Assembly (NCBI GenBank): GCA_025999455.1
Contig: AP024683.1
Location: forward strand, 1,557,501-1,621,500
Length of the DNA stretch: 64,000 bases
Direction of reading: 5' to 3'
Source: Geminicoccaceae bacterium
GTDB lineage: Bacteria; Pseudomonadota; Alphaproteobacteria; Geminicoccales; Geminicoccaceae
A model generated the notes under the pieces. That model did not search any database, had not been told where the DNA came from, and saw nothing but the letters and a program-made list of their open reading frames with translations. Positions within the stretch are counted from its first letter, which is position 1. Every line of letters begins with the position of its first letter. This document shows positions 9,110 through 34,112 of this stretch, in pieces. The position numbers and the translations under genes are program-made.

Positions 9110-9676
9110 TCAGAAACGGAAGAGGGTGAAGCGCGGTACCCGGCGCCATTCCTCGGGGGTCACGACGCCGTTGCGATCGAGGTCGGCGCGGACGAACTCG
9201 TCGGTCCGGGCGAGGCTGAACTCGAGCGCGCTCACCCGCCCGTCGCCGTCCCGGTCCATCTCGAGCCGCAGGCTCGACAGGCGCTCGAGCTCGGCCCGCG
9301 AGAGCCGACCGTCGCGGTCGCGATCGCCCGCCTCGACGAGCTGCCAGGCCTCGTGGCGGGAGACCCAGCCGTCACCGTCGAGGTCGAGGACGGCCAAGCC
9401 CGTGCGGATCTCCTCGAGGTCGAGCTTGCCGTCCCGGTTGCGGTCGAGCCGGCGGAAGGTCTCGCGGGTCGCCTCCTGCCAGCCCCGCGCTCGGTAGGGC
9501 CCACCGCCGGTCGGGGGAGGTTCGACGGCCGCCGGTTCGACGGCCGGGACGGTCGGGCCCGGCTCCGGCGTCGGTTCGGAACAGCCGACCGAGAAGAGGA
9601 GGGCGGCCGTGATGGCGAGAGCCCCGGGCGAGGTCGGCACTGCCGCGGCGAACGGGGGGAGGCGGCCTCCGACCAT
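9110..9676 (-). CDS. EF-hand lipoprotein with five calcium-binding loops
   Basis: 188 aa, ATG at 9676 with GGAG 8 nt upstream. Residues about 18-32 form a hydrophobic stretch ending in LLFSVGC, a lipobox with Cys32 as lipidation site. A Pro-rich linker (33-60) leads to five canonical EF-hand loops at about 78-89 (DRNRDGKLDLEE), 98-109, 118-129, 141-152 and 165-176. A surface-anchored calcium-binding or calcium-sensing protein is inferred. The concentration of five loops in about 100 residues is a calmodulin-like density. No partner gene is evident; downstream is dgcN on the same strand after about 100 nt. Confidence 0.85.
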   Translation of the reverse strand: MVGGRLPPFAAAVPTSPGALAITAALLFSVGCSEPTPEPGPTVPAVEPAAVEPPPTGGGPYRARGWQEATRETFRRLDRNRDGKLDLEEIRTGLAVLDLDGDGWVSRHEAWQLVEAGDRDRDGRLSRAELERLSSLRLEMDRDGDGRVSALEFSLARTDEFVRADLDRNGVVTPEEWRRVPRFTLFRF

Positions 9677-9715
9677 GGTGGCGGGCTCCGGCGGAAGGTG
9701 GCGGGCGAGCCCGGT

Positions 9716-10528
9716 TCAGGTGCCGACCGAGAAGGGCGCGGTCAAGCGGCGGAGTGCGGCGACGACGGAAAGCGCGGTGAGCCGTCCGGTGCGCGGGTTC
9801 TCGGCACTCGGGACGTTGGCGATCGTCATCGTGAAGGAGGCTTCCTCGGCCTCGACCTCGATCCGGTGGGTGTTGCGGGTCACGGTCGGATCGGCCCAGA
9901 TGCGAAGTCGCGTCCGGTCGGGGCCGATCCCGGCGAGCGCCAGGGCCGCGGCGACGTTGACGTTGGCCGGGAATCCCCGCGCACCTTCACGCGCCGTGCC
10001 GTCGAAGACGAGGAGCGGCTCGGCGAGGCCCGAAAGATCGATGCCGCGGGCGACGAGATGGGGGGCGCCCGCGAGCCCGGCGGGCGGCTTGCGCGTTTCC
10101 ATCGTGACCGAGCGGATCGTGCCCTCGGCCGCGGCGCGGACCGCATCGAGCCCCAAGAGCGCGCCGGTCGGCGGCAGGATGTGCGCGCCGGTCGTCCGCG
10201 CGAGCTCGACGAGGTCGAGATGGTCGAGAAGAGCGCCCACCGAGAGCGGTAGGAAGATCCGCCCGCGACGCACGGCGGGCTCGGCGACGTCGCGGAAGAC
10301 CGCGGCCGGCGCGCATTCGACGACGATCCGGGCCCGCTCGGCGAGCTCGGGAAGCGGCACGACCGGCACGGGTCGGGCGAGGCGGTGGGCCATCCGCGCC
10401 CGCGCGGCCTCGGGGTCGCGGGCGCTCACGGCCACGAGCGAAAGCCCCTCGATCCCGCGGTCGAGCCTTTCGGCGACGGTTGCACCGATCGCGCCGAAGC
10501 CGGCGATCGCGACGGTCGATTCCGGCAT
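9716..10528 (-). CDS. nadX: L-aspartate dehydrogenase
   Basis: 270 aa, ATG at 10528 with GGAGG 7 nt upstream. The N terminus carries the NAD(P) fingerprint VAIAGFGAIGATVAERL; the C-terminal domain has METRKPPAGLAGAP and the strongly conserved FPANVNVAAALALAGIG, with a His in NTHRIEVE. The enzyme oxidises L-aspartate to iminoaspartate (and ammonia/oxaloacetate), and can feed quinolinate synthesis for NAD. The quinolinate genes nadA and nadC are not adjacent, so a role in amino-acid catabolism is also possible. Confidence 0.9.
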   Translation of the reverse strand: MPESTVAIAGFGAIGATVAERLDRGIEGLSLVAVSARDPEAARARMAHRLARPVPVVPLPELAERARIVVECAPAAVFRDVAEPAVRRGRIFLPLSVGALLDHLDLVELARTTGAHILPPTGALLGLDAVRAAAEGTIRSVTMETRKPPAGLAGAPHLVARGIDLSGLAEPLLVFDGTAREGARGFPANVNVAAALALAGIGPDRTRLRIWADPTVTRNTHRIEVEAEEASFTMTIANVPSAENPRTGRLTALSVVAALRRLTAPFSVGT

Positions 10529-17934: not shown

Positions 17935-18286
17935 ATCGAAAGGCTGTGGTCGCGCCGCGCCGGTTCGGCAGGTAGGCGGCGCGTCGGGTCGAGGCGCCCG
18001 GGCCGGTCTCCCGAGCACCGGCGTCAACTTTTTCTCAACCTTTCTCGCGCAGGATCGGCTTCGGCAGCCGGAGACCCCGATGGCCGAAGCGTTCTTCGTC
18101 CTCTCGACGCTGCTCGCCCTGGCGGCGCTCTTCCTCGTTCGTGCCGCGGCCGGGCTCGCAACCGTCGCGAGCGAGGCGATGCCGTCGTTCGGCTCCTCCA
18201 CCGGTCGTGCGGGCCGCGTCCAGCCGCATCGAGAGCCTCCGCCGGGACGGGCGACGCGCGGCCGGCCGGGCCCCCTCGCGCCGAGC
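17935..18286. other. Gene-poor interval between tRNA-Lys and purH
   Basis: 352 bp with no gene I can support. A start with GGAG at 18080 opens with a hydrophobic segment (FFVLSTLLALAALFLV) and could be the start of a small membrane protein, but the frame has no stop until 24877, running antisense to three genes. No clear terminator hairpin with a T-run is seen. Confidence 0.5.
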
Positions 18287-19834
18287 TCAATGGCGGAAGT
18301 GGCGCCGACCGGTGAAGACCATCGCCACGCCCGCCCGATCGGCGGCTTCGATCACCTCCGCGTCGCGTTTCGAGCCGCCCGGTTGGATACAGGCCGTGGC
18401 ACCGCCGGCGATCGCCGCCTCGAGCCCGTCGGGAAACGGAAAAAACGCGTCGGAGGCGACCACGCAGGGTCCGCGACCGGCCCCCCGCTCCATCCGCTCG
18501 ACCGCGTGGCGGGCGGCATCCACCCGGCTCGTCTCGCCCATGCCGATCCCGACCGTGGCACGGTCGCGGGCCAGCACGATCGCGTTCGAGCGGGTGTGCC
18601 GGACGACCTTCCAAGCGAAGGCGAGGTCGGCCCACTCGGCTTCGGTGGGAGCCCGACGGGTCACGACCCGCCAGGAGGCAGGGTCGTCCGCGCCGACGTC
18701 GCGCGTCTGGACGAGGAGTCCGCCGGCGAGCGAGCGGACCACGAGTCCGTGGTCGGCCGGGTCGGGCAGCCGGTCGAGCACGAGCAACCGGAGGCCGGGC
18801 TTGCGCGCGAAAAGGGCCGCCGCTTGGGGCTCGATGCCGGGTGCGACCACGACCTCGAGGAAGAGTGCGCCCATCGCCTCGGCGGTCGCGGCATCGAGCG
18901 GGCGGTTGACCGCGACGATTCCGCCGAAGGCCGAGATCGGATCGCAGGCGAGCGCCTTCTCCCAGGCCGCGCGCAGATCCGCCCCGACCGCCGCGCCGCA
19001 CGGATTGGCGTGTTTGACGATCACGACCGCCGGGTCGGCGTGCTCGACCACCGCTTCGAGCGCCGCATCGGCGTCGAGGAGATTGTTGTAGGAAGGCTCC
19101 TTGCCCTGGAGCCGCCGGGCGGTCGCGACCCCGGGCCGCGGCGGACCCCAGCGGTAGAGCGCCGCTTCCTGGTGGGGGTTCTCCCCGTAGCGGAGCCTTT
19201 CGATCCGTTCGGCGGCGAGCACGAGCCTTTCCGGGAAGCGTTCGCCGCGGGCCTCGTCGAAGAAGGCGGCGATCGCCGCATCGTAGCCGGCGGTGCGCGC
19301 GAAGGCTTTGGCGGCGAGCCGGCGACGCGTTTCGAGACAGGTGCCGCCCGCGCGCACGAGTTCGTCGAGGATCACCGCGTAGTCGGCCGTGTCGACGACC
19401 ACCGCGACCCGGTCGTGGTTCTTGGCCGCGGCCCGGATCATGGCCGGCCCGCCCACGTCGATCTGCTCGACGCATTCGGCGAAGCTCGCGCCGCGCGCGC
19501 GGGTCGCTTCGAAGGGGTAGAGGTTGGCGACCAAGAGATCGATGGGCGCGATCCCGTGGGCAGCCAGGGTCGAGCGGTGCTCGCCCGTGTCGGTCGCCAA
19601 GAGCCCGGCGTGGACGGCCGGGTGGAGCGTCTTGACCCGGCCGTCCAGGATCTCGGGGAATCCTGTGAGCGTGCTCACCTCGATCGGGGAGAGCCCGGCG
19701 TCGCGGAGCGTGCGGGCGGTGCCGCCGGTCGAGACGAGTTCGACGCCGCGCTCGGCGAGAGCGCGGGCGAACTCGACGAGGCCCGTCTTGTCGGAAACCG
19801 ACAGGAGCGCGCGGCGGATCGGCCGAAGGCTCAT
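18287..19834 (-). CDS. purH: Bifunctional AICAR formyltransferase/IMP cyclohydrolase
   Basis: 515 aa, ATG at 19834 with GAGGAG upstream. The N-terminal IMP cyclohydrolase part starts [20 protein letters not shown] with STGGTARTL and [15 protein letters not shown]; the transformylase part has [15 protein letters not shown], the catalytic [11 protein letters not shown] and [14 protein letters not shown]. Together they perform the last two steps of de novo purine synthesis (AICAR to FAICAR to IMP). The length is normal. It lies 24 nt downstream of rsmB on the same strand, a frequent arrangement in alphaproteobacteria. Confidence 0.98.
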
Positions 19835-19858
19835 GGGTGGAGCTCCTCGCGAGGCGGA

Positions 19859-21247
19859 TCAGGAAATTCGGGCCAAGCGGGCGATGTAGAAGCCGTCCAT
19901 GCCGCCCCGTTCGGCCCAGTGGCAGGGGAGGGTCCGGACCGCACCCGAGGGATCCGGCACGAGCGGGAGGCCGGCGAGCTCTTCCGGGCGGATCGGGTCG
20001 CGCCGGAGGCCGGGCGCCCGGGCGAGGAGGGCCTCGATGCGCGGGGCACCTTCTTCGGGTTGGAGCGAGCAGACGGCGTAGACGAGCCGTCCACCCGGCG
20101 CGAGCATCGCGGCGGCGGCGTCCAGGAGACGGTCCTGCAGGTCGGTCATCCGCGCGAGGTCCGCCGTTCGCTTGTGATGCAGGATGTCGGGGTGGCGGCG
20201 GATCGTACCCGTGGCGGTGCAGGGCGCATCGAGCAGCACGAACGGGGCCGGCGCGGCCGGTCGCCAGACCGTGACGTCGGCGTCGACGAGCTCGGCCTCG
20301 AGCCGCAGACGGGCGAGGTTGGCGCGGACCCGCTCGAGCCGCGGGGCCGACACGTCGACCGCGGTGACCCGCGCCCCGGCCGCCGCGAGCTGGAGCGTCT
20401 TGCCACCCGGTGCGGCGCAGAGATCGATCACCCGATCCCCGGGCCGCGGGCCCAAGAGGCGCGCGGGCAGGCTCGCCGCGACGTCCTGGACCCAGAAGCG
20501 GCCCTCGGCGAAGCCGGGCAGCTCCTCGATCGCGCCGCCGACCGGCCGCCGCACGACGTCCCGCCACAGCGGCTCGGCCTCGAGGTCGGCGGCGGCCTTT
20601 TCGGGGTCGCCGCGCACGACGAGGTCGAGCGGCGGTTCGCGGAGATGCACCTCGGCGATCGCCCGGGCGGTCGGCTCGCCATAGGCTGCGACCCAGCTCC
20701 GCCAGAGCCAGTCGGGGGTGTCGAGCCGAGGCCCGTCGAGTTCGGGAAGACGCGTCGCGGCGTGCCCGGCGACCCGGCGCAGGACGGCGTTGATCATGGG
20801 CACGGCCTTGGCGTGGCCGTGCCGAGCGAGCTCGACCGTCGTGTGGACGGCGGCGTGCGGCGGGGTGCCCAGGATCGCGAGCTGGGCGATCCCGAGGCGC
20901 AGGATGTGGCGCAGGCGTGGCGGCTCGGGAACGAAGCGCAGGAAGGGGGCGGCGAGTGCGTCGAGCTCGCCCATCCGGCGCAGCACGGTGACGACCAGGA
21001 GCCGAGCCAGCTGGCGGTCGCGCGGCGCGAGATCGCCGAGGGCCGGATGGTCGGCGAACGCCTCCTCGAGCCGGCGCCGTTCCGGCCCGAGCACCGCGTC
21101 GAGCACGTCGAGGGCGAGGGAACGGGCGCTCGGGGGCGGCCGTTTGGCGGTGAGGACCGGGGGGCCGCCATGGGCCGGTCCGCGGCGGGGTGGCGGGTCG
21201 GGCGGCCCCTTGCGGCGCCGAGGCGGCTCCTCGCTGCGGCCTCTCAT
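19859..21247 (-). CDS. rsmB: RsmB/NOP family 16S rRNA (cytosine-C5) methyltransferase
   Basis: 462 aa, ATG at 21247. A basic, Pro/Arg-rich N terminus (about 40 residues) precedes a NusB-like RNA-binding domain (ARSLALDVLDAVLGPERRRLEEAF to about residue 160) and a SAM methyltransferase domain with VIDLCAAPGGKTLQLAAAG, the first catalytic Cys in LLDAPCTATGT and the second in VYAVCSLQPEEG. It methylates cytosine in 16S rRNA (C967 in E. coli numbering). Co-oriented with purH downstream. The basic N-terminal extension may start further downstream than annotated. Confidence 0.93.
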   Translation of the reverse strand: MRGRSEEPPRRRKGPPDPPPRRGPAHGGPPVLTAKRPPPSARSLALDVLDAVLGPERRRLEEAFADHPALGDLAPRDRQLARLLVVTVLRRMGELDALAAPFLRFVPEPPRLRHILRLGIAQLAILGTPPHAAVHTTVELARHGHAKAVPMINAVLRRVAGHAATRLPELDGPRLDTPDWLWRSWVAAYGEPTARAIAEVHLREPPLDLVVRGDPEKAAADLEAEPLWRDVVRRPVGGAIEELPGFAEGRFWVQDVAASLPARLLGPRPGDRVIDLCAAPGGKTLQLAAAGARVTAVDVSAPRLERVRANLARLRLEAELVDADVTVWRPAAPAPFVLLDAPCTATGTIRRHPDILHHKRTADLARMTDLQDRLLDAAAAMLAPGGRLVYAVCSLQPEEGAPRIEALLARAPGLRRDPIRPEELAGLPLVPDPSGAVRTLPCHWAERGGMDGFYIARLARIS

Positions 21248-21892
21248 GGCGCGCTCCGCGCGAGGGTCCGACCGAGCCCGGATCGCGGATCCCGGATCGG
21301 CGAGCCCGGCCTCGTCATGCGGAGCCTCCCGGGCCGATCGGGTCGATGTCCCGGTGCCCCGCTACCCGATGCAGGTCCGTGTGCTGCTCGCGGCGCCACC
21401 GCCAAGAGGCGAGGCTTCGGCGTCGATCGGACGAGCGTGTCGCGTGTCGGTGCGCGCTGCGGAGCTGTCGATACCGGCGGTCCGACATCGACAGGTCCGA
21501 TGCTCGTCGCCTGTCCCGATCCGGCCGAGCTCGCCGATCGAGCGCGGCGCTCCGATGCGCTCGCGACCGAAAGTCGTGATCGCGACGGTGCGCCGGTCGA
21601 CCGTTGGCCGGTCGACGAACCGACGAGCCGATGCCCTCCCGGGCCGCCGACCGAGCGCGAAGGGCCAACTGGGCCTCCCGATCGGCTCGGACGCACGACC
21701 GGGGCTCGTCGCGCCGGGCCGAGTCCACCGGCCACGCGATCCGGGCTGCAGGGTCGCGAACCGTCGGCGCCGCCGGTCGCAACGCGAGGCGAGCCGCAGC
21801 GCGCGGCTCGGATCGCCACGGTGCGCGAGGCTCGCCCCGGCGATCCCGTCGCCGACGGTCGAGGCGTGCCGTCGACCTCGCGTTCCGAACCC
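21248..21892. other. 645-bp interval without a credible gene
   Basis: Located between the rsmB start and the lysK stop. Several frames stay open because of the extreme GC content, but none has a ribosome site plus a protein-like composition, and the sequence lacks the third-position G/C rhythm of the flanking genes. It should hold the rsmB-purH promoter; I see no clear -35/-10 pair or terminator hairpin. Confidence 0.5.
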
Positions 21893-23482
21893 TCATGCGG
21901 CCTCGCTCGCGCGGGCGAGGGCGGCGGCGATCAGGGCGCGGGTCTCGGCGATCCCGTAGAGCGCCACGAAGGTACCGAAGCGCGGCCCCTCCGACCGACC
22001 GAGCAACGTTTCGTAGAGCGCTTTGAACCAGTCGCGCAAATTCGCGAAGCCGTGCGCCTTGCCGATCTCGTAGAGCAGGTCCTGGATCGCCTCGCCGCCG
22101 GTGTCGGCCGGCAGGGCGGCGAGCCGAGCGTCGAGGTCGGCGAGCGCGGCCCGTTCCTGCGCCGTGGGTGCACGGAACCGGCGCGCCGGCAGGACGAAGT
22201 CGCGGCAATAGGCGAGGGCGTGCTCGACCAGCCGGGCGAGGCTCGGATGGCTCTGCGGTGTGACGCCGGGGGCGTAGCGGGTGATGAAGCCCCAAAGGAG
22301 CTCCGGCGACTGCGCGTTGAGCACGGCCGCGAGGTTCAAGAGCATCGAATAGCCGAGCGGCAGGTGCTCGACCGGCGGATCACCGTCATGGATGTGGAAG
22401 ACCGGGTTGGCGAGCTTCTTCTCGACGTCCTGCGAGGGAAAAGCTTCCAAGAGCTGCTGGTACTCGTCGACGTGCCGCGGGATCACGTCGAAGTAGAGCC
22501 GCTTCGCCGCCTTGGGTTCCTTGTACATGAAAAGGGCGAGGCTTTCGCGCGTCCCGTAGCGGAGCCACTCCTCGATGGTGAGGCCGTTGCCCTTGGATTT
22601 GCTGATCTTCTGGCCTTCCTCGTCGAGGAAGAGCTCGTAGGTGAACCCTTCCGGCGGCTCCCCGCCCAGGATCCGGCAGATCCGGGCGCCGAGCTTGACC
22701 GAGTCGATCAGGTCCTTGCCGGACATTTCGTAGTCGACGTCGAGGGCCACCCAGCGCATCGCCCAATCGCACTTCCACTGCATCTTGCAGTGCCCGCCGG
22801 TCACCGGCAGTTCGGTGAGCGTGCCGTCCTCGTCGCGGAACACGACCGTGCCGGACTCGGGCCGGGTCTCCAGGATCGGCACCTGGAGGACCCGGCCGGT
22901 CTTGGGCGAGATCGGCAGGATCGGCGAATAGGTCGCGCGGCGCTCGGGGCCGAGCGTGGGCAAGACGACTTGGCGGATGGCCTCGTGGTTCTCGAGCACC
23001 TTCAAGAGCGTCGCATCGAACCGACCGCTCTTGTAACACTCGGTGGCACTCAAAAACATGTAAGGAAAACCGAAATCGTCGAGGAACGCCTTGAGCCGGG
23101 CGTTCATGTGGTGGCCGAAGGATTCGTGGGTCCCGAACGGATCCGGGATCGCGGTGAGGGGCCGGCCGAGATGGCGTGCGACCATCTCGCGGGCGGGGAT
23201 GTTGTCGGGGACTTTGCGGAGCCCGTCCATGTCGTCGGAGAAGGCGACGAGCTCGGTCGGCAGATCGCAGAGCCGGGCGAAGGCACGCCGGACGAGCGTC
23301 GTGCGGAACACCTCGCCGAAGGTGCCGATGTGCGGCAACCCGGAGGGACCGTAGCCGGTCTCGAAGAGCACGTAACCCTTGGCGGGCGGACGGCGGCGCA
23401 CGCGCTCGACGACCTTGAGCGCCTCGACCACCGGCCAGGCTTTGCAGCGGGCGAACAGCTCGCGCGGGACGGGCTCGCTCAA
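21893..23482 (-). CDS. lysK: Lysyl-tRNA synthetase, class I
   Basis: 529 aa from the TTG at 23482 (GGAG at 7 nt spacing); an in-frame ATG at 23530 would add 16 Arg/Pro-rich residues and is less likely. The class I signatures are [12 protein letters not shown] (HIGH-type) and [12 protein letters not shown] (KMSKS-type); the CYKSGRF and [22 protein letters not shown] blocks are specific to the archaeal-type LysRS also found in alphaproteobacteria. It charges tRNA-Lys such as the one at 17859. The long open frame continuing upstream of the start runs through a repeat array and is not coding. Confidence 0.95.
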
Positions 23483-23884
23483 GGACGGGCTCCAGCTCGA
23501 CGGCCCGCGACCGCGGGCGACCGGCACCATAGCGTCTCCGTCGGCGGCGACCAGCGGGCGGATCGTCCCGTGCGCCGCCCGGGGGCGACGGGCGCGGCGG
23601 AATGCTCGGCGATCGATCGCACAGGTAGGAGCAGCGAGCCGGCTCGCGAAGGCCGCGCGGACGGTGACGGCCCTGGCCCGGGGGCTCGCTGCCCCTTCGT
23701 GGGTCCGGCGCCGGCCGGGCCGCTCGAAGCGGGGGCGGTCGAGCCCGGCACGGACAGGCGCGGCGCCGCTCTTCCTCCGTCCTTCGCTCCCTCCGAACAG
23801 CCCGAATGGCGCAAGGGCCCGACCCTGCGTTCCGCCGATCGGGGGCGAGCGCGCGGAGACGCAAGCCGGAGCGGGCAAGCGCGC
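23483..23884. other. Non-coding interval upstream of lysK
   Basis: About 400 bp between the lysK start and the first recognisable unit of the tandem array. Open frames here are Arg/Pro/Gly-rich and lack ribosome sites. It probably contains the lysK promoter, which I cannot pinpoint. Confidence 0.45.
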
Positions 23885-25073
23885 GCGTCCGACGACCGGG
23901 GCCCGACCCGTGATGCCGAGACGGTCGAAACGGCGGTCGACCCTGCCGGAGAGGACGGCTATCGACCGATCGGCACCCGCGTGCCGCCTCGTCGCGTTCG
24001 CCCGTCGGCTCGCAGCGGGGCCGTGGCTGGAGGGGAGGGTGGCGCGTCGCGGCAGCGTCGGGTCGGCCGGCGTGAGGTCTCGGCGGCGGCGCTTCCGCTT
24101 CGCGACGTCGACGTCCACGCGGAGGTCGACCCGACGAGCATGGAGACCGGTTCGCCAGGCGGTGCCCCGGCGCCGAATGGTTCTTCGCCGCGGTCGGGTC
24201 GCAGCGGGGCCGGAACCGTCGCGGAGGTCGGCGCATCGTGGGGGCGTCCGGGCGACTCGGACGAGGTCTCGGCGGTAGCGTTTCGGGTTCGTGACGCCGA
24301 CGTCGGGGCGGGGGCCGACGCGACGAGCGACGTGGCCGTCTCGCCCAGCGGCGACCCGGCGGCGCATCAACCGGCGGCGCATCAAAGTGCGTCGCGTTCG
24401 GCTCGCAGCGGGGCAGGAGCCGACGCGGAGGGCGATGTGTCGCGACGGCATCCGGGCGGCCCGGGCGCGGTGTCGGCGACGGCGCTTCCGGTTCGTGATG
24501 CCGACGTCGAGGCGGGCGCCGACGCGACGAGCGAGGTGACCGGCTCGCCGAGCGGTGTCCCGATGGCGCATGGTCCCTCGCCGCGGTCGGGTCGCAGCGG
24601 GGCCGGAACCGGCGCGGGGGTCGGCGTGTCGGGGCCGTGTCCGGACGATCGAAACGAGGTCTCGAAGTTCGCGCCTCCGCTTCGCGACGTCGACGCCGAG
24701 GTGGGGGGCGACGCGGCGAGCATGGAGACCGGTTCGCCGATCGGCACCCGCGTGCCGTATCGTCGTGCGTCCCGGTCTGATCGCGCCGAGGCCGGAACCG
24801 GCGCGGGGGTCGGCGCATCGCGGGGGGCGTCCGGGCGACTCGGACGAGGTCTCGGCGGTAGCGTTTCGGGTTCGTGATGCCGACGTCGGGGCGAGGGCCG
24901 ACGCGACTAGCATGGAGACCGGTTTGCCGATCGGCACCCGCGTGCCGTATCGTCGTGCGTCCCGGTCTGATCGCGCCGAGGCCGGAGCCGGCGCGGGGGC
25001 GGCGTGTCGTGGCGGTGTCCGGTCGACTCCCGGCCGGGCTCAGTCGACCCGTACGAGCTCGCGGCGGTAGCGC
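23885..25073. repeat. Diverged tandem array, roughly 189-bp unit, about six copies
   Basis: Using the landmark gaggtctcgg (or close variants), units begin at 24074, 24263, 24467, 24656 and 24846; intervals are 189, 204, 189 and 190 bp. An earlier degenerate unit covers about 23885-24073, recognisable by atcggcacccgcgtgccg. The 204-bp unit carries a 15-bp internal duplication around ggcggcgcatcaa. The next landmark, gagctcgcggcggtagcg at 25055, already lies inside the 3' end of the gamma-carbonic anhydrase gene and matches the unit start at about 27 of 34 positions. Differences between units fall at all three codon positions in the frames I checked, so I regard the array as non-coding satellite-like DNA. 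Confidence 0.85.
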
Positions 25074-25564
25074 TTCCAGTTGGCGACGTAGGCCCGAGTG
25101 CCGCGGGCCATCCGCTCGAGCTGGTCGGGCCGCACCTCGCCCACGACCTTGCCGGGAATGCCCATGACCAGGCTGTTGTCGGGGATCTCCTTGCCCTCGC
25201 CCACGAGCGCTTTCGCGGCGATCAGACAGTTGCGGCCGACCTTGGCACCCGTGAGCACCATGGCACCGATGCCGATCAACGAGCCCGCGCCGATCGTGCA
25301 GCCGTGCAGGACGGCGGCGTGGCCGACCGTCACGTCCGGCCCGACGACGAGCGGGTAGCCCGGGTCGGTGTGGCAGATCGTGCCGTCCTGGACGTTGGTC
25401 CGGGCGCCGATCTCGATCGGCTCGCCGTCGCCGCGCAGCACGCAGTTCCACCAGATGCTCGCCTCGTCGCCGAGCTTCACCTTGCCGATCAACACGGCGG
25501 TCGGTGCGACCCAGAAGGCGTCGGTCTCGGTCTCGAGCTCGTACTCTCCCAAGCGATAGATCAA
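25040..25564 (-). CDS. Gamma carbonic anhydrase family protein
   Basis: 174 aa from the TTG at 25564, which overlaps the argC stop by 4 nt and has GGAGGAGG 10 nt upstream. The left-handed beta-helix hexapeptide repeats run from [16 protein letters not shown] to [16 protein letters not shown]; zinc-type histidines are in [11 protein letters not shown] and [10 protein letters not shown]. Many family members (Paa Y/YrdA type) have no proven anhydrase activity. The last 15 codons ([14 protein letters not shown]) coincide with the beginning of the adjoining tandem repeats, so this tail is either the source of the array or was overwritten by it. Confidence 0.93.
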
Positions 25565-26496: not shown

Positions 26497-27878
26497 GGAG
26501 CCCGTCTCTGCGCCACCGCGCCCGAGCATAGGCGGCCGGCCGGCGACGGTCGAGGCAGGCGAGCGCGGACCCGTCCAGCATCGCCTCGCGGAGCCGATCG
26601 AGGGATGCCGGACGGATCGAGGGTGCCCGCTCCCCGCGCGACCGCGCCCTCAGGGATGCGACGCGTTCGACGCGCGCACGACGCGGGTTCCTTCGACGAC
26701 CGGGTCACGCCCCGGGGCCGACGATCCACGACCGGCGAAGCTCCGAGCGGCACGAGGCGCGGTTGCGGTTTTCCGGCGGGAGGCGTTCGGTCCCGCGCCT
26801 GCCGAGGCCGATCGCGGCCACCGCGCCACTCGGGCCCGAGCGCCCGACCTGCGGTGCCTCCGGTTCCACGCCCTCGGGCCGCAGGGCGACGGAGACCTCG
26901 CCGCGGTTCCGGCCAAACGGTCGGGCTCGAGCGTCGAACGGGCCGAGGCGCAGCGAGGTCGGCCGGTCCCGCGAGGGCGGGGGCTGGGTCGGGGCCGCCC
27001 GGCCCGGAGCCCGGTCCGAGATGTCCCGGCGCCGGGCGCACGGGCGGAGGGCAGCCGAGGGGCCGGGGACCGACCGGCGGCGGGCGAGCGGAAAGGCAGC
27101 GCCGGATCCGTACCGCCGATGCGGCGCTGCGCGACCGCCCGTGTGGCGGCGGGGCGCCGAGCTTCGCGCGCTTCGCGGGCGACATGCGGCCCTTCGTCGT
27201 GGATCCGGCTTGGACGGGTCGCAGCGCGTTCGGCCTTTGCGGATCCGGCGCGTCGGCGGGGCCTGTCGACGATGGGCCGCGACCGATCGTGGGAAAGGCG
27301 CGCGTCCGCCGAAGGTGGTGCGGCCGGCAGTCCCGTCTCGCCCCGCGCGAGGGCAGCCGGCGTCGAGGCGCCGACCGCTATTCCGCCGATGACCGGCACC
27401 CGACGCGACGACGCTCGGTTCGAGGGGCAGCGGCGGGATCCCGCTGGTCGTCTGCGAACGACCGGCGCGGCGCAGACGGGGTGCGCCGACCGTGCCGACG
27501 ACGTCCTGCGGGTCGCGCCGCCGTCCGGCGTTCGCGGGCCCACGGGCGCGTTGCCGCCCGGTGTTCGCCTGCCGTCGGTTCAGGCTCCTGCCGTCGGCTT
27601 CACGGCAACTGCACGAATCGTGGGCACGGGGCGCCTCTCGCACGGTCGTCGAGTCGCCGACGGCGCACGCCGCGTACGCGCCGGCGAAAGCGATCCGAGC
27701 CCGGATCCGCGGATCGCCGCGCCTCGGCGCGAGGGGCCACGTAACCGGCTCACCCGCGCGGGGCGGCGCACCGGACCCGGCCGGGGCGTATGCCGTCGGG
27801 CCACGGGATTGGGTCGCAGGCGAGGCGCGATCGAGGGGGCGGTGCCTGACCGGACGAGCCGGTTCGTCCGAGCGCACC
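26497..27878. other. 1.4-kb interval without a credible gene
   Basis: Between argC and the cyanate operon. Both strands have long open frames, but they are Arg/Ala/Pro-rich, lack ribosome sites and show no known motif, and third-position composition is not gene-like. It contains one copy (27036-27086) of a direct repeat whose second copy follows the cyanase gene. Similar compositional texture is seen in the 21.2-21.9 kb and 23.5-25.0 kb gaps. Confidence 0.55.
27036..27086 (+). repeat. Direct repeat copy A flanking the cyanate module
   Basis: About 51 bp; the core gcagccgaggggccgggga is identical in copy B at 31593-31646, and over the first 48 aligned bases the two copies differ at four positions. 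Both are in the same orientation, about 4.5 kb apart, on either side of the cyanate transport/cyanase genes. Confidence 0.8.
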
Positions 27879-27894
27879 TGGCAAGCTGTTTGCA
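27879..27894 (+). promoter_or_regulatory. Sigma-54 (RpoN) type -24/-12 promoter for the cyanate operon
   Basis: TGGCAAG-CTGT-TTGCA matches the consensus TGGCACG-N4-TTGCW with one mismatch and exact spacing of the GG and GC elements. Transcription would start near 27905, about 24 nt before the ATG, with AAGGAGG in that leader. This implies nitrogen control through an NtrC-type activator, which fits cyanate as a nitrogen source. Confidence 0.75.
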
Positions 27895-27928
27895 AAGCGG
27901 CCGCGCGTGCGGAAGGAGGCGGAGCGCG

Positions 27929-29332
27929 ATGGCCCGAAACGTCGACACCCGATTTGCCGATCCCGCTCTCATGACGACCTGTGGTTGCGGCTACGACCAC
28001 GCCCTGGACGACCAGGGTTGCGCGGCGCGCGCCGTCGACCCGGTCGGAGGCGGAACACCACGACCCTTGGCGCGCGACGAGGGCTCGCCGGTCGAACGAG
28101 TGATCGAGGCGTCGCTCCTCAAAGCCCTTTTTCCGAAGGAAACCGCTCGCCGCCAATTCCTGCGTGCGGTGGGTCGAGGCACCGCCCTGGCGGCGATCGC
28201 GAGCGTGGTGCCGCTCGCCGATTTGAAGGCGATGGCCCAAGAAAAAGCCCCACTCGAGAAAAAAGATCTCAAAATCGGCTTCATCCCGATCACCTGTGCC
28301 ACGCCGCTCATCGTCGCCCACCCGCTCGGCTCCTATGCACAGGAGGGCTTGAACGTCGAGGTCGTGAAGACGGCCGGTTGGGCGCTCATTCGCGACAAGA
28401 TGCTCAACCGCGAATACGACGCGACCCATTTTTTGTCGCCCATGCCGCTCGCCATCACGCTCGGTTTGGGCTCCACGGCGAGGCCGATGAACGTCGCCAC
28501 CGTTCAGAACACCAACGGTCAAGCCATCACCTTGGCACTCGAGCACAAGGACAGACGTGACCCACGCGAATGGAAGGGGTTCAAATTCGCGGTACCTTTC
28601 GACTATTCGATGCACAACTTTTTGCTTCGCTATTACGTCGCCGAAGCGGGCCTCGACCCCGACAAGGACATCCAGATCCGGGTGGTGCCGCCACCGGAAA
28701 TGGTCGCGAACCTCCGCGCCGGTAACATCGACGGCTTTCTGGGCCCCGATCCGTTCAATCAGCGTGCCGTCTTCGAGGAAGTCGGTTTCATTCATCTTCT
28801 CACGAAAGACCTGTGGAACGGGCATCCGTGCTGTGCGTTCGGCACGAGCACGGAATTCATCGAGCAGCATCCCAACACGTTCGCGGCTCTGTTCCGAGCG
28901 GTGTTGAACGCCGCCGCCACGGCGCGCCGGCCCGAGAACCGGCAGATGGTCGCGAAAATGATCGCGCCGAGCCAATACCTCAACCAGCCGGAGATCGTCG
29001 TCCAGCAGGTGCTCACCGGTCGGTTCGCGGACGGACTCGGCGGGATCAAGACGGTGCCCGATCGCATCGACTTCGACCCGGTGCCCTGGCACAGCATGGC
29101 CGTTTGGATGCTCACGCAGATGAAACGTTGGGGCTACATCAAAGACGACGTCGATTACGCGCAGATCGCCGAGCGCGTCTTCCTGCTGACCGAGGCGCAT
29201 CGGCACATGAAAGATTTGGGCCTGCCGGTCCCCGAAGGTCCGGGGTACCGGAAGCACGTCATCATGGGCAAAGAATTCGATCCGTCCGCCCCGGAGGACT
29301 ACGTCCGGAGCTTCGCCCTGCGCAGGATTTGA
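27929..29332 (+). CDS. cynA: CmpA/NrtA-family ABC transporter substrate-binding protein (cyanate type)
   Basis: 467 aa, ATG at 27929 after AAGGAGG. The first 65 residues contain a Cys/His cluster (Cys18, Cys20, His24, Cys31), then KETARRQFLRAVG with twin arginines at 74-75 and a hydrophobic run, i.e. a Tat-type signal set back from the start. The mature domain begins KKDLKIGFIPITCATPLIVAHPLG and has KTAGWALIRDKMLNREYDATHFLSPMP and FDYSMHNFLLRYYVAE, as in nitrate/bicarbonate/cyanate binding proteins. Because cyanase is encoded in the same operon, cyanate is the most likely ligand. More A/T at third positions than neighbouring genes. Confidence 0.9.
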   Translation: MARNVDTRFADPALMTTCGCGYDHALDDQGCAARAVDPVGGGTPRPLARDEGSPVERVIEASLLKALFPKETARRQFLRAVGRGTALAAIASVVPLADLKAMAQEKAPLEKKDLKIGFIPITCATPLIVAHPLGSYAQEGLNVEVVKTAGWALIRDKMLNREYDATHFLSPMPLAITLGLGSTARPMNVATVQNTNGQAITLALEHKDRRDPREWKGFKFAVPFDYSMHNFLLRYYVAEAGLDPDKDIQIRVVPPPEMVANLRAGNIDGFLGPDPFNQRAVFEEVGFIHLLTKDLWNGHPCCAFGTSTEFIEQHPNTFAALFRAVLNAAATARRPENRQMVAKMIAPSQYLNQPEIVVQQVLTGRFADGLGGIKTVPDRIDFDPVPWHSMAVWMLTQMKRWGYIKDDVDYAQIAERVFLLTEAHRHMKDLGLPVPEGPGYRKHVIMGKEFDPSAPEDYVRSFALRRI

Positions 29333-29340
29333 CGAGCGCG

Positions 29341-30213
29341 ATGTCGAGCGCGTTCGACGTCCGAACCACCCTCGCTTCGCTACTGTTGCTCCTGTTCGTC
29401 TTGGGTGGTTGGCAGCTCGCCACGGATGGGACCGGGAGTCGAGGCCCCGCGGTCGCCGTCTCGCTCTCCGAAGAGGAGCGCGAATATCTGCGGATGCTCG
29501 GCAAAGACCCCGATGCGGCGACGGCGAAACGCGACGGGTTCCCGAGCCCGATCACGGTGGCCCGATCGGCGTGGGAGCACCTCGCCGATCCGTTTTTCGA
29601 TCGGGGCCCGAACGACAAGGGGATCGGCCTGCAGCTGCTCTACTCGTTGGCACGTGTCGCGACCGGCTTCGGGCTCGCGGTGCTCGTGGCCCTGCCGTTG
29701 GGTTTCCTCATCGGGATGTCGCCTCTCGTGCGCGGGGCGCTCGATCCGTTCGTGCAGGTCCTCAAGCCGATCAGCCCGCTCGCCTGGATGCCGCTCGCGC
29801 TCTACACGCTCAAGGATTCCAACGTGAGCGGTGTGTTCGTGATCTTCGTGTGCTCGATCTGGCCGATGCTGATCAACACCGCGTTCGGTGTCGCCTCGGT
29901 GCGACGCGAGTGGCTCGCCGTCGCGGCCACGCTCGAGGTTTCGCGCTTGCGCAAGGCCTTCTGCGTGATCTTGCCGGCCGCCGCACCCACCATCGTCACC
30001 GGGATGCGGATCAGCATCGGCATCGCTTGGCTCGTCATCGTCGCCGCGGAAATGTTGGTCGGTGGTACCGGCATCGGTTATTTCGTGTGGAACGAGTGGA
30101 ACAATTTGAGCTTACCCAACGTCATCTTCGCCATTCTCGTGATCGGTGTGGTGGGGATGATCCTCGACAAAATGTTGGGCGCGCTGCAGCGTCTGGTGAC
30201 CTACGTGGAGTGA
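29341..30213 (+). CDS. cynB: ABC transporter permease (cyanate/nitrate type)
   Basis: 290 aa, ATG at 29341, 8 nt after the cynA stop. One N-terminal membrane segment (LASLLLLLFVLGGWQL) is followed by a periplasmic or linker stretch and the BPD_transp_1 domain: LARVATGFGLAVLVALPLGFLIG, the EAA-like loop KAFCVILPAAAPTIVTGMRI, and terminal helices FAILVIGVVGMILDKML. It forms the inner-membrane channel with the ATPase encoded next. The assignment to cyanate is by operon context. Confidence 0.92.
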   Translation: MSSAFDVRTTLASLLLLLFVLGGWQLATDGTGSRGPAVAVSLSEEEREYLRMLGKDPDAATAKRDGFPSPITVARSAWEHLADPFFDRGPNDKGIGLQLLYSLARVATGFGLAVLVALPLGFLIGMSPLVRGALDPFVQVLKPISPLAWMPLALYTLKDSNVSGVFVIFVCSIWPMLINTAFGVASVRREWLAVAATLEVSRLRKAFCVILPAAAPTIVTGMRISIGIAWLVIVAAEMLVGGTGIGYFVWNEWNNLSLPNVIFAILVIGVVGMILDKMLGALQRLVTYVE

Positions 30214-30216
30214 AGC

Positions 30217-31011
30217 GTGGCGCCCTTCCTCCAGGTCGAGAAGCTGAGCAAGGCGTATCAAGCCGATCGGCCCGTGTTCGCGGACGTCTCGTTCAGCGCG
30301 CAGCGGGGTGAGTTCGTCTGCCTGATCGGACATTCGGGTTGCGGTAAAACGACGATCTTGAACGTGCTCGCGGGCTTGGACAGCGCGACGACCGGCCACG
30401 TGTTCGTGGACGGGCGCGAGGTCCGCGGTCCCGGTTTGGAACGTGGGGTCGTCTTCCAGAACCACGCGCTCCTACCCTGGCTCACGGTCCGCCGGAACAT
30501 CGCCTTCGCGGTCAAGTCACGCTGGCCGTCTTGGAAAGCTGCGCAAGTGGACGAGCAGGTACGGAAGTACGTGGAGCTCGTGGGTCTCGGTCACGCCATC
30601 GACAAGAAGCCCTTTCAGCTTTCGGGCGGCATGAAGCAGCGCGTCGGGATCGCGCGGGCCTTCGCCATCGAGCCGAAACTTCTCCTGCTCGACGAGCCGT
30701 TCGGTGCGCTCGACGCCCTCACGCGGGGAACGATCCAAGACGAGCTCATGGCGATCGTGCGGCGGACCGGACAGACGGTGTTCATGATCACGCACGACGT
30801 CGACGAAGCCATTCTGTTGGCCGATCGCATCTTGCTGATGACCAACGGTGGTGACACGCCGGGCGGTTACCGACCCGGTGGCCTCGCCGAAGTCGTACGC
30901 AACCCGCTGCCGCGCGAGCGCAGCCGTGCCGAGCTCCACCGCTTGCCGGGCTATTACGAACTCCGCAATCACCTCGTCGATTTCCTCGTTTCCCGCGCGA
31001 AAGCGGCCTGA
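30217..31011 (+). CDS. cynD: ABC transporter ATP-binding protein (cyanate/nitrate type)
   Basis: 264 aa from GTG at 30217, 3 nt after the permease stop. Walker A GHSGCGKTT (residues 38-46), Q-loop FQNHALLPWL, signature LSGGMKQR, Walker B LLLLDEPFGALD and switch His in MITHDVDEA are all intact. The NrtD/SsuB-like subgroup energises import of nitrate, sulfonate, or cyanate. Ends 33 nt before cynS. Confidence 0.94.
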   Translation: MAPFLQVEKLSKAYQADRPVFADVSFSAQRGEFVCLIGHSGCGKTTILNVLAGLDSATTGHVFVDGREVRGPGLERGVVFQNHALLPWLTVRRNIAFAVKSRWPSWKAAQVDEQVRKYVELVGLGHAIDKKPFQLSGGMKQRVGIARAFAIEPKLLLLDEPFGALDALTRGTIQDELMAIVRRTGQTVFMITHDVDEAILLADRILLMTNGGDTPGGYRPGGLAEVVRNPLPRERSRAELHRLPGYYELRNHLVDFLVSRAKAA

Positions 31012-31044
31012 ACTCTTCCACCCCTACCCCGAGAGGAGGCTTCC

Positions 31045-31488
31045 GTGAACCGAGCTCGAGTCACCGAAAAGATCCTGTCCGTGAAGATCGCCAAGGGCCT
31101 CAAATGGAAGGACATCGCGGCGAAGGTCGGGCGATCGAAAGAGTGGACCACGGCGCTCTGCCTCGGCCAGATGACCGCTACGCCCGAACAAGCGAAGATT
31201 TTGGGTGAAATTTTCGACCTCACGGACGAAGAGCAAAAAATTCTGCAGATCGTGCCCTACAAAGGCTCTCTGCCGACCCAGATCCCGACCGACCCGCTGA
31301 TCTATCGATTCTACGAACTCGTGAACGTCTACGGCACGACCATCAAGGAGCTGATCCACGAAGAGTTCGGCGACGGCATCATGAGCGCCATCGATTTCGA
31401 GATGGACATCAGCCGCCAGCCGGACGCGAAGGGCGATCGCGTGCGCATCGTCATGTCGGGCAAGTTCTTACCCTACAAGGAATATTGA
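31045..31488 (+). CDS. cynS: Cyanate hydratase (cyanase)
   Basis: 147 aa, ATG-less GTG at 31045 with GAGAGGAGG upstream. Catalytic residues align with E. coli Arg96/Glu99/Ser122 as Arg88 and Glu91 (LIYRFYELVNVYG) and Ser114 (GIMSAIDF). It converts cyanate and bicarbonate to CO2 and carbamate, releasing ammonia. Placed last in the cynABD operon, it gives a complete uptake-and-detoxification/nitrogen module. A weak GATCGG/CCGATC hairpin sits right at the stop but lacks a T-run. Confidence 0.97.
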   Translation: MNRARVTEKILSVKIAKGLKWKDIAAKVGRSKEWTTALCLGQMTATPEQAKILGEIFDLTDEEQKILQIVPYKGSLPTQIPTDPLIYRFYELVNVYGTTIKELIHEEFGDGIMSAIDFEMDISRQPDAKGDRVRIVMSGKFLPYKEY

Positions 31489-31661: not shown

Positions 31662-34112
31662 ATGAGCCCCGTTCTCGTGCCCCCGCGACCCGGCGCCTCG
31701 CCGGTCGCGGCCGGTCTGCCCGAGCCCTTCGCCTCTTGGTTCGCCGCACGCGGCTGGCGGCCCAGGCGCCACCAGCTCGCGATGCTCGAGCTCGCGAAGG
31801 ACGGCCGCGACGTGCTGCTGGTGGCCCCCACGGGCGGCGGCAAGACGCTCGCGGGCTTCCTGCCGAGCCTCGTCGAGCTCGCCGAGCGGGGCGGGGGCGA
31901 GGGCATCCACACCCTCTACGTCTCGCCCTTGAAGGCGCTCTCGGCCGACGTCGCCCGCAACCTCGAGACGCCGATCCGCGAGATGGGCCTTCCCGTGAGC
32001 CTCGCCGTGCGGACCGGCGACACCAAGGCCGCGGCCCGCGCCCGCCAACGAAGGCGACCGCCCGACCTCCTCCTCACCACGCCCGAGTCCCTGGCGCTCC
32101 TCCTCTCCTACCCCGACGCCGCCGAGCGGTTCGCGAGCCTGCGCGCGGTCGTGCTCGACGAGCTGCACGCGCTCGCCGAGAGCAAGCGCGGTGTCCTCCT
32201 GGCGCTCGGGCTGTCGCGCCTGCGGAGCCTCGCGCCCGGGGCCCGGTTCGTCGGGCTCTCGGCGACCGTCGCCGACCCCGCGGCCCTGCGCCGCTGGCTC
32301 GCGCCCACACCCGAGCGGGTGGCCCTCGTCGAAGGCGAGCCCGGCGCGAAGCCCGAGCTCCTGATCCTGATCCCCGAGGGGCCGATGCCCTGGGCCGGGC
32401 ATTACGCGACGCACGCCGCCCCGGCCGTCCTCGAGCTCGTTCGCCGCCACCGCACGAGCATCGTCTTCGTCAACACCCGCGCCCAGGCGGAGGTGCTCTT
32501 CGGCCTGTTGTGGCGGCTCAACGCGGACAATCTGCCGATCGCGCTCCATCACGGCTCGCTCGAGGCCGAGCAGCGCAGGAAGGTCGAGGCGGCGATGGCG
32601 GCCGGCAAGCTGCGCGCGGTCGTGGCGACCTCCTCGCTCGACCTCGGGATCGACTGGGGTGACGTCGACCTCGTCGTGCAGGTGGGCGCACCCAAAGGTG
32701 CCGCTCGGCTCCTGCAGCGGATCGGCCGCGCCAACCACCGGCTCGAGGAGCCCTCGAAGGCCGTGCTCGTGCCGGCCAACCGTTTCGAGGTGCTCGAATG
32801 CCTGGCCGCGCGCGAGGCGGTCGAGGAGGGGGCCCTCGACGGCGGGACGATCGCACCGGGCGGGCTCGACGTCTTGGCCCAGCATCTGACGGGCATCGCC
32901 TGCGCCGGCCCCTTCGACGCCGACCGGGTCTTCGAGGAGGTCCGCGCGACCGCCCCTTACGCCGGCCTCGCCCGTGCCGATTTCGACGCCGTGCTCGACT
33001 TCGTCGCGACCGGGGGCTACGCGCTCGGCCGCTACGAGCGCTTCCGCCGGCTCGTGCGCGGGCCGGACGGGCTCTGGCGGCTGTCCGACCCGCGGCTCGC
33101 CCGGCAGTATCGGATGAACGTCGGCACGATCGTCGAAGCGCCGGTCATGAAGGTCCGGCTCGGCCCGCGCGGCCGGCGGCTCGGCGAGGTCGAGGAATAT
33201 TTCGTGAGCACGCTCTCACCCGGCGACACCTTCCTCTTCGCCGGCCGGCTCCTCGAATTCGTGGGCGTGCAGGAGGACGAGGTCATCGTGAAGAAGGGCC
33301 GGGGTGGCGAGCCCAAGGTCCCGGCCTATGCCGGCGGCAAGCTCCCGCTCACGAACGCGTTGTCGGCGCGCGTCAAGGCGATGCTCGCCGACCCGGCCCG
33401 CTGGGGCGAGTTCCCGGCCCCGGTGCGCGAATGGCTCGACGCCCAGGCCCGCCGCTCGACCACGGGCGCGCCGAGCGAGCTTTTGGTCGAGACCTTCCCG
33501 CGCGGCGGTCGGCAGTTCCTCGTGGCCTACCCGATGGCCGGCCGCAACGCCCACCAGACGCTCGGCATGCTCTTGACCCGGCGGATGGAGCGGCTCGGGC
33601 TCGCACCCTTGGGCTTCGTCGCCTCCGATTATTGCATCGCGGTCTGGGGCCGCCGGCCGGTCGAACGACCGCAGGAGCTCTTCACGGTCGATCTTTTGGC
33701 CGACGATCTCGAGGAGTGGATGGCCGAGAGCTCGGTCGTCAAACGCACCTTCCGCAACTGTGTCGTCGTGGCCGGGCTCGTCGAGCGGCGCCACCCGGGC
33801 CGGCAGAAGACCGGCCGGCAGCTCACGATGAGCGCCGATCTGATCTACGACGTCCTGCGCAAATACGAGCCCGACCACGTGCTGTTGCGCGCCGCGCGGG
33901 CCGAGGCGGCGCACGGCATGACCGACATCCGCCGGCTCTCCGACCTCCTGAACGCGGTCCAGGGGCGGATCCGCCACGTCCGATTGCCGCGCATCTCGCC
34001 CTTCGCGGTGGCGATCGTGGCCGGGATCGGCAAGGAGTTCGTGGGCGGCGAGGCGCTCGACCGGGAGCTCGAGGCGGCGGTCGAGGAGCTCGTCCGGGAG
34101 GCGATGGGGTGA
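31662..34112 (+). CDS. Ligase-associated DNA damage response DEXH-box helicase (Lhr-like)
   Basis: 816 aa, ATG at 31662. Motif I APTGGGKT (55-62), motif II VLDELHAL, motif III FVGLSATVAD, and RecA2 motifs ATSSLDLGIDWGDVD and RIGRANHR are intact; a winged-helix/beta-sheet C-terminal region with VGTIVEAPVMKVRL and YPMAGRNAHQTLGMLL follows, as in Lhr-core proteins. In bacteria this subfamily is encoded with an ATP-dependent ligase, an exonuclease and PdeM for DNA repair. Here only PdeM follows (stop/start overlap). Confidence 0.93.
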   Translation: MSPVLVPPRPGASPVAAGLPEPFASWFAARGWRPRRHQLAMLELAKDGRDVLLVAPTGGGKTLAGFLPSLVELAERGGGEGIHTLYVSPLKALSADVARNLETPIREMGLPVSLAVRTGDTKAAARARQRRRPPDLLLTTPESLALLLSYPDAAERFASLRAVVLDELHALAESKRGVLLALGLSRLRSLAPGARFVGLSATVADPAALRRWLAPTPERVALVEGEPGAKPELLILIPEGPMPWAGHYATHAAPAVLELVRRHRTSIVFVNTRAQAEVLFGLLWRLNADNLPIALHHGSLEAEQRRKVEAAMAAGKLRAVVATSSLDLGIDWGDVDLVVQVGAPKGAARLLQRIGRANHRLEEPSKAVLVPANRFEVLECLAAREAVEEGALDGGTIAPGGLDVLAQHLTGIACAGPFDADRVFEEVRATAPYAGLARADFDAVLDFVATGGYALGRYERFRRLVRGPDGLWRLSDPRLARQYRMNVGTIVEAPVMKVRLGPRGRRLGEVEEYFVSTLSPGDTFLFAGRLLEFVGVQEDEVIVKKGRGGEPKVPAYAGGKLPLTNALSARVKAMLADPARWGEFPAPVREWLDAQARRSTTGAPSELLVETFPRGGRQFLVAYPMAGRNAHQTLGMLLTRRMERLGLAPLGFVASDYCIAVWGRRPVERPQELFTVDLLADDLEEWMAESSVVKRTFRNCVVVAGLVERRHPGRQKTGRQLTMSADLIYDVLRKYEPDHVLLRAARAEAAHGMTDIRRLSDLLNAVQGRIRHVRLPRISPFAVAIVAGIGKEFVGGEALDRELEAAVEELVREAMG

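Follow-up and report, generated by a model that had tools for sequence, protein, structure and literature searches.

A lineage-specific tandem array between genes for a putative γ-carbonic anhydrase and lysyl-tRNA synthetase in a Geminicoccaceae bacterium, probably seeded by a gene tail

Genes and layout of the array

The window analysed here is a 64,000-nucleotide stretch of the 3.76 Mb, single-contig genome of a Geminicoccaceae bacterium (G000:C1:1557501-1621500), and positions given without a genome or locus label refer to it. On its minus strand an argC-like gene, a gene for a hexapeptide-repeat protein (gCA; 25040-25564, stop codon at 25040-25042), a tandem array and lysK follow one another. 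The gCA product is putatively of the γ-carbonic anhydrase kind, a name taken from an initial annotation of the window, the Pfam match itself being Hexapep (PF00132, E = 3e-13); the gene was matched in 30 of the 31 family genomes at an E-value of 1e-20 or better. The next gene downstream, lysK (21893-23482, minus strand), encodes a class I lysyl-tRNA synthetase (PF01921, E = 3.7e-131), and its gene model begins at a predicted TTG start at 23480-23482. Measured to this predicted start, the gCA-lysK spacer is 1557 bp long.

The array in this spacer is confirmed to be real. TRF reports it at 24004-25029 with a period of 189, 5.3 copies and 73% matches, together with a 204 bp variant at 24189-24571. 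The top 40-nucleotide self-match in the gap is perfect (40/40), compared with at most 30 across 40 shuffles. The units have a G+C content of 72-79% and are head-to-tail copies of one sequence, as in bacterial intergenic tandem repeats or minisatellites. Similarity extends from 23966, and not from 23885 as initially annotated, up to the gCA stop codon. A 44-nucleotide block recurs at spacings of 189, 204, 189, 190 and 209 bp; the 209 bp step reaches into gCA, and the sixth copy of the block (25045-25088) lies inside the gene, in register with the array.

In gene direction, with every feature on the minus strand, the order begins with the gene tail (block copy 0, 25045-25088) and a 21 bp piece that holds the stop codon and has GTCGAC at both edges (25024-25044). 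Then come body 1 (144 bp, 24880-25023), tail copy 1 (24836-24879, identical to the gene tail at 34 of 44 positions), body 2 (146 bp, 24690-24835, in the 190 bp unit), tail copy 2 (24646-24689, 30/44), body 3 (145 bp, 24501-24645), tail copy 3 (24457-24500, 30/44), body 4 (160 bp, 24297-24456, in the 204 bp unit), tail copy 4 (24253-24296, 35/44), body 5 (145 bp, 24108-24252), tail copy 5 (24064-24107, 32/44) and partial body 6 (98 bp, 23966-24063), the outer limit of the recognizable array. The length of the 204 bp unit is accounted for by an exact 15 bp duplication inside body 4 (24356-24385). The array thus consists of five full units, a 98 bp partial unit and the gene tail; the initial description gave about six 189 bp units, one of 204 and one of 190 bp. 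Its statement that the units end exactly at the 3' end of the gene needs a correction, since the 21 bp piece, which is missing from all units, sits between the gene tail and the first unit.

The remainder of the spacer up to lysK (23483-23965, no strand assigned) is G+C-rich and non-repetitive: its best self-match (26/40) was equalled by 21 of 40 shuffles, a search against its own genome found only itself, and it shows no similarity to the array unit. A CRISPR array was considered for the repeats and rejected: divergence is spread over the whole 189 bp unit, unlike in an array of short, near-exact repeats with unique spacers.

Coding potential and possible roles

The initial annotation noted that the gCA peptide YRRELVRV is echoed as YRRDLVRV in the units; the echo is present at 24253 and 24836, in only two of the five units. 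In G+C-rich genomes, with their long open frames, a peptide echo next to the gene that it resembles does not have to be coding sequence. Could the array nevertheless encode, or once have encoded, a repeat protein, or extend gCA at its C terminus or LysK at its N terminus? The unit lengths 189 and 204 bp are divisible by three and several frames are open; frames cross the array without a stop on either strand, and one of these is in frame with lysK. However, open frames are also listed for the non-coding gaps of the window, and the 190 bp unit disrupts the frame. The G+C content by codon phase differs by only 0.07-0.15 within the units, compared with 0.41-0.48 in the neighbouring genes, and in the six informative unit pairs mismatches show no preference for any phase (P = 0.11-0.66), the other four, which include unit 24836, having too few in-phase sites for this test. 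The codon-phase signal that a repeat-protein gene carries in its composition and substitutions is therefore lacking on both counts. Three open frames through the array gave no match in Pfam or PHROGs at E = 0.1. The gene model also leaves the array non-coding, but it was trained with this gap as non-coding and is not independent evidence. A coding origin is accordingly highly improbable, and the initial view that the array is non-coding stands, its proposed check of the substitution pattern having come out in favour. A lack of coding constraint is also what is seen in minisatellites.

A structured RNA was rejected: Rfam has a single match in the whole window, a tRNA, and none in the array, and folding is not in excess (z-scores of -1.65 to +0.86 for five units on both strands). 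The array might instead act as a regulatory spacer, the number of units setting lysK expression or gCA mRNA stability. It lies directly upstream of a housekeeping gene and in the same direction, and in Mycobacterium tuberculosis, according to PMC2734929 on the fpg1 repeats, the expression of a gene correlates with the repeat region before it, which is confined to one species complex. Against this, the folding scores are unremarkable, conservation of the tail block (74%) does not exceed that of the body (77%), and some 480 bp of non-repeat sequence separates the array from lysK. A crude scan found no σ70-like promoter in the array and one terminator-like site where 0.3 are expected, which is nothing of note. 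We regard a regulatory role as unlikely; most likely the array does nothing beyond lengthening the spacer.

Relation to the gCA tail and growth of the array

The likeness between the unit start and the gene end that was initially reported is borne out, with 30 to 35 of 44 positions identical between the gene tail and the units; the match fades about 44-48 nucleotides inside gCA. As a control, the final 60 nucleotides of 396 genes, taken from the window plus 400 kb of the same genome, were aligned with the array; the gCA tail ranks first (score 43, with the runner-up at 33), and 3000 random coding 60-mers scored 38 at most. The gCA tail is taken as the seed of the array because it belongs to the repeat register; the control scores and the conservation of the tail peptide in relatives point the same way.

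Two directions had been proposed: that the gene tail was duplicated repeatedly, or that repeats replaced the original tail. The suggested comparison of the C terminus in relatives was carried out at 110 gCA loci, of which the 80 beyond the family matches were taken from named genomes, three (L042-L044) seem to repeat the congeners G023, G020 and G021, and five had less than 700 bp of downstream sequence. The C-terminal tail motif is widespread among these relatives, but an array behind gCA was detected by TRF at one locus of the 110, that of the window; it is absent from the five congeners and from 104 other loci. In all five congeners lysK follows gCA directly, the lysK alignment starting 103-138 bp past the gCA stop codon. 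These genomes are draft assemblies in which gCA and lysK share one contig, and copies as diverged as those of the array would hardly have collapsed during assembly. The conserved motif, the occurrence of the array at one of 110 loci and the congener spacers of about 0.1 kb identify the tail as ancestral and the array as a later gain. This comparison of sequences supports the view that the gene tail would have seeded the array and that repeats did not replace the tail, relatives keeping the motif without an array. The initial annotation had held that homologues with the same C terminus and no array would imply a separate origin; such homologues exist, and what they show is that the tail predates the array. 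Confinement to one lineage and absence at the same place in near relatives are also features of minisatellites.

Could the array be a mobile or repetitive element from elsewhere that resembles the gCA tail by chance or through later gene conversion? The congener spacers gave no source for the body: none of 25 local alignments (five bodies against five spacers) scored above shuffles, and strong body scores were obtained only with the sequence behind the stop codon in its own genome, which is part of unit 24836 itself. However, the match to the tail is well above the controls and in register. Elsewhere in its own genome the array was matched by one further scrap of 48 bp (80% identity, 42.8 bits; 40 of 306 first-look candidates scored), and of the 30 further genomes of the family, 12 contain scraps of 41.9-46.4 bits and nothing longer (at most 13 candidates scored per genome). 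An arrival from elsewhere is thus very unlikely. Recombination could have imported a ready-made array, for which no source was found among the genomes searched.

We consider it probable (about 0.83) that this is a lineage-specific, non-coding, minisatellite-like tandem array in which a segment of about 189 bp, combining 44 nucleotides of gCA tail with about 145 bp of gCA-lysK spacer, was duplicated repeatedly. The first tandem duplication may have occurred through replication slippage or unequal recombination. The 145 bp body would derive from the old spacer, whose lysK-side end is not recognizable in 23483-23965. The 21 bp piece with the stop codon lies between two GTCGAC copies in the flank of gCA itself, and its absence from the units is most simply accounted for by a deletion between these repeats in a founding copy, that is, in one daughter unit after the first duplication. 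Unequal crossing-over or gene conversion would then have enlarged the array and mixed its units, which would meanwhile have decayed neutrally.

The units themselves carry traces of such mixing. Variation is present in 84 of the 188 comparable columns, and 74 of these have only two states. Two pairs of units are identical over runs of variable sites, 20 in one pair and 28 in the other, neither of which was reached in 5000 permutations; the remaining eight pairs gave P-values of 0.03-0.48. One of the long-run pairs, 24253 and 24836, is non-adjacent. Mosaics of this kind are the mark of unequal crossing-over or gene conversion. Full units are 70-84% identical and differ from one another by 16.5-30% (ten pairs). 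The fourfold-degenerate divergence from G020 is 31% over six genes, that from G021 and G024 37-38% and that from G022 and G023 47% (six genes; five for G023). The differences between units do not exceed the divergence from G020, and growth after the split from G020 therefore needs no unusual rate. The comparison covered one genome per species. The locus is a well-polarized example of how a bacterial intergenic repeat begins: the gene tail shows the seed, the five congeners with their spacers of about 0.1 kb show the empty state, and the array itself shows the grown one. It is otherwise ordinary, a tidy case of common repeat growth.

Two observations concern the neighbourhood. The 5' end of lysK and the stretch upstream of it (23400-23560) are closer to G024 than to G020-G023, despite G020 being the nearest congener overall; local recombination or retention of an old form are possible explanations. 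Inserted genes at 28064-31488 separate argC from the gene at 31716; the matching interval measures 16-415 bp in G020-G023.

Known repeats and other long gaps

The array is of an already known sort, an intergenic tandem repeat, with clean polarity. A close parallel is ETR-F / VNTR3239, the rnc-fpg1 repeats of M. tuberculosis. According to PMC2734929 the spacer with these repeats measures 279-358 bp, compared with 1-54 bp in close relatives; isolates differ in repeat number, which correlates with expression. In both cases repeats fill a spacer between two genes that is minimal in relatives and do so in one lineage only. The present units differ in being 189 bp long and 16.5-30% diverged, in containing a gene tail and in being known from one strain. 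MIRU of M. tuberculosis likewise sit between genes, but the same paper places these 40-100 bp elements in 41 places of one chromosome, whereas the present array is essentially at one place: related units at many sites of its own genome were not found beyond the single 48 bp match among the candidates scored. The tandem repeats of archaeal Borg elements are perfect copies, enriched in A, that occur throughout the element; here a single array holds G+C-rich copies that are neither perfect nor A-enriched. We found nothing on the gCA-lysK array in the literature searched and make no claim that it is absent from print.

The initial annotation suggested that three other gaps of the window have the same texture and that the genome may carry a family of expanding intergenic sequence. 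The gaps at 21158-21898 and 26509-28063 and the stretch behind a tRNA at 17940-18289 do share high G+C content and an absent codon phase, but not repetition (their self-matches were reached by 32-38 of 40 shuffles) or sequence, the other long gaps of the window having no similarity to the array. For gaps of more than 700 bp the rate per 100 kb is 2.5 in the sample of the source genome and 4.7 in the window, compared with 2.0 in G023 and G024, 0 in G022, 3.1 in G021 and 0 in G020; the G021 and G020 rates rest on 32 and 13 kb, and all come from a home-made gene finder trained on the window, which makes them rough for congeners of other G+C content. With one 48 bp scrap, non-repetitive other gaps and a long-gap rate not clearly above that of the congeners, the proposed genome-wide family is not borne out.

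The gaps before argC and after lysK (26509-28063 and 21158-21898) are long here and in G024 (L127:3202-5950 and 9143-10045) and short in the other congeners compared. The window and G024 gaps align over just 89 bp, next to a gene end. In the 40-nucleotide self-match test two long gaps of G024 show weak repeats above all 40 shuffles, and the larger of the L127 gaps holds weak repeats of 108 bp. We take the long gaps beside argC and lysK as a local peculiarity and not as a repeat family.

Gene edges were surveyed in 864 kb (about 23% of the genome, window included), giving 80 gaps of at least 250 bp and 160 edge tests. The gCA-lysK gap ranked first (z = 7.7), and six edges beat all controls where about two are expected by rank. 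A family of tail-seeded gaps was rejected: of four other top edges inspected (the fifth, in L150, was left out), three did not convince, their matches being gapped, inverted or very short. The fourth, in L140, echoes its adjoining gene at 26 of 31 nucleotides and is a weak lead. It is improbable, though, that a gene 3' end more generally serves as a nursery for intergenic DNA, with loss of the stop-codon piece letting the unit spread and the resulting spacer uncoupling lysK from gCA or tuning lysK by unit number; if it does, the L140 echo beside a 292 bp duplication would point to a recurrent route of spacer lengthening in this genome.

At a TRF score of 150 or more, no non-coding arrays were found in 565 kb of the five congeners, and the others in the 864 kb are the L140 duplication and two CRISPR-like arrays, in L147 and L188. 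The weak repeats in the two G024 gaps speak against this contrast between the genomes. The first is a 292 bp tandem duplication, 91% alike, in a 1.9 kb G+C-rich non-coding gap of the source genome (L140:11517-13421). The CRISPR-like arrays, recognized by eye, lie at L147 ~19719-20000 and L188:1-9356 (G000:C1:2900001-2909356); their repeat unit, spaced about 71-72 bp apart, contains GAAGAAGGGATTAAGAC or its complement. TRF counts about 130 copies in the L188 array, which is cut by the start of the stretch. A called gap of at least 3.9 kb with 76% G+C (L191:1-3875, G000:C1:3620001-3623875) holds no TRF array at score 150. Coding tandem repeats also occur in the source genome, with units of 135 bp in about 25 copies at L133:7449-10881 and of 132 bp in about five copies at L139:1141-1853.
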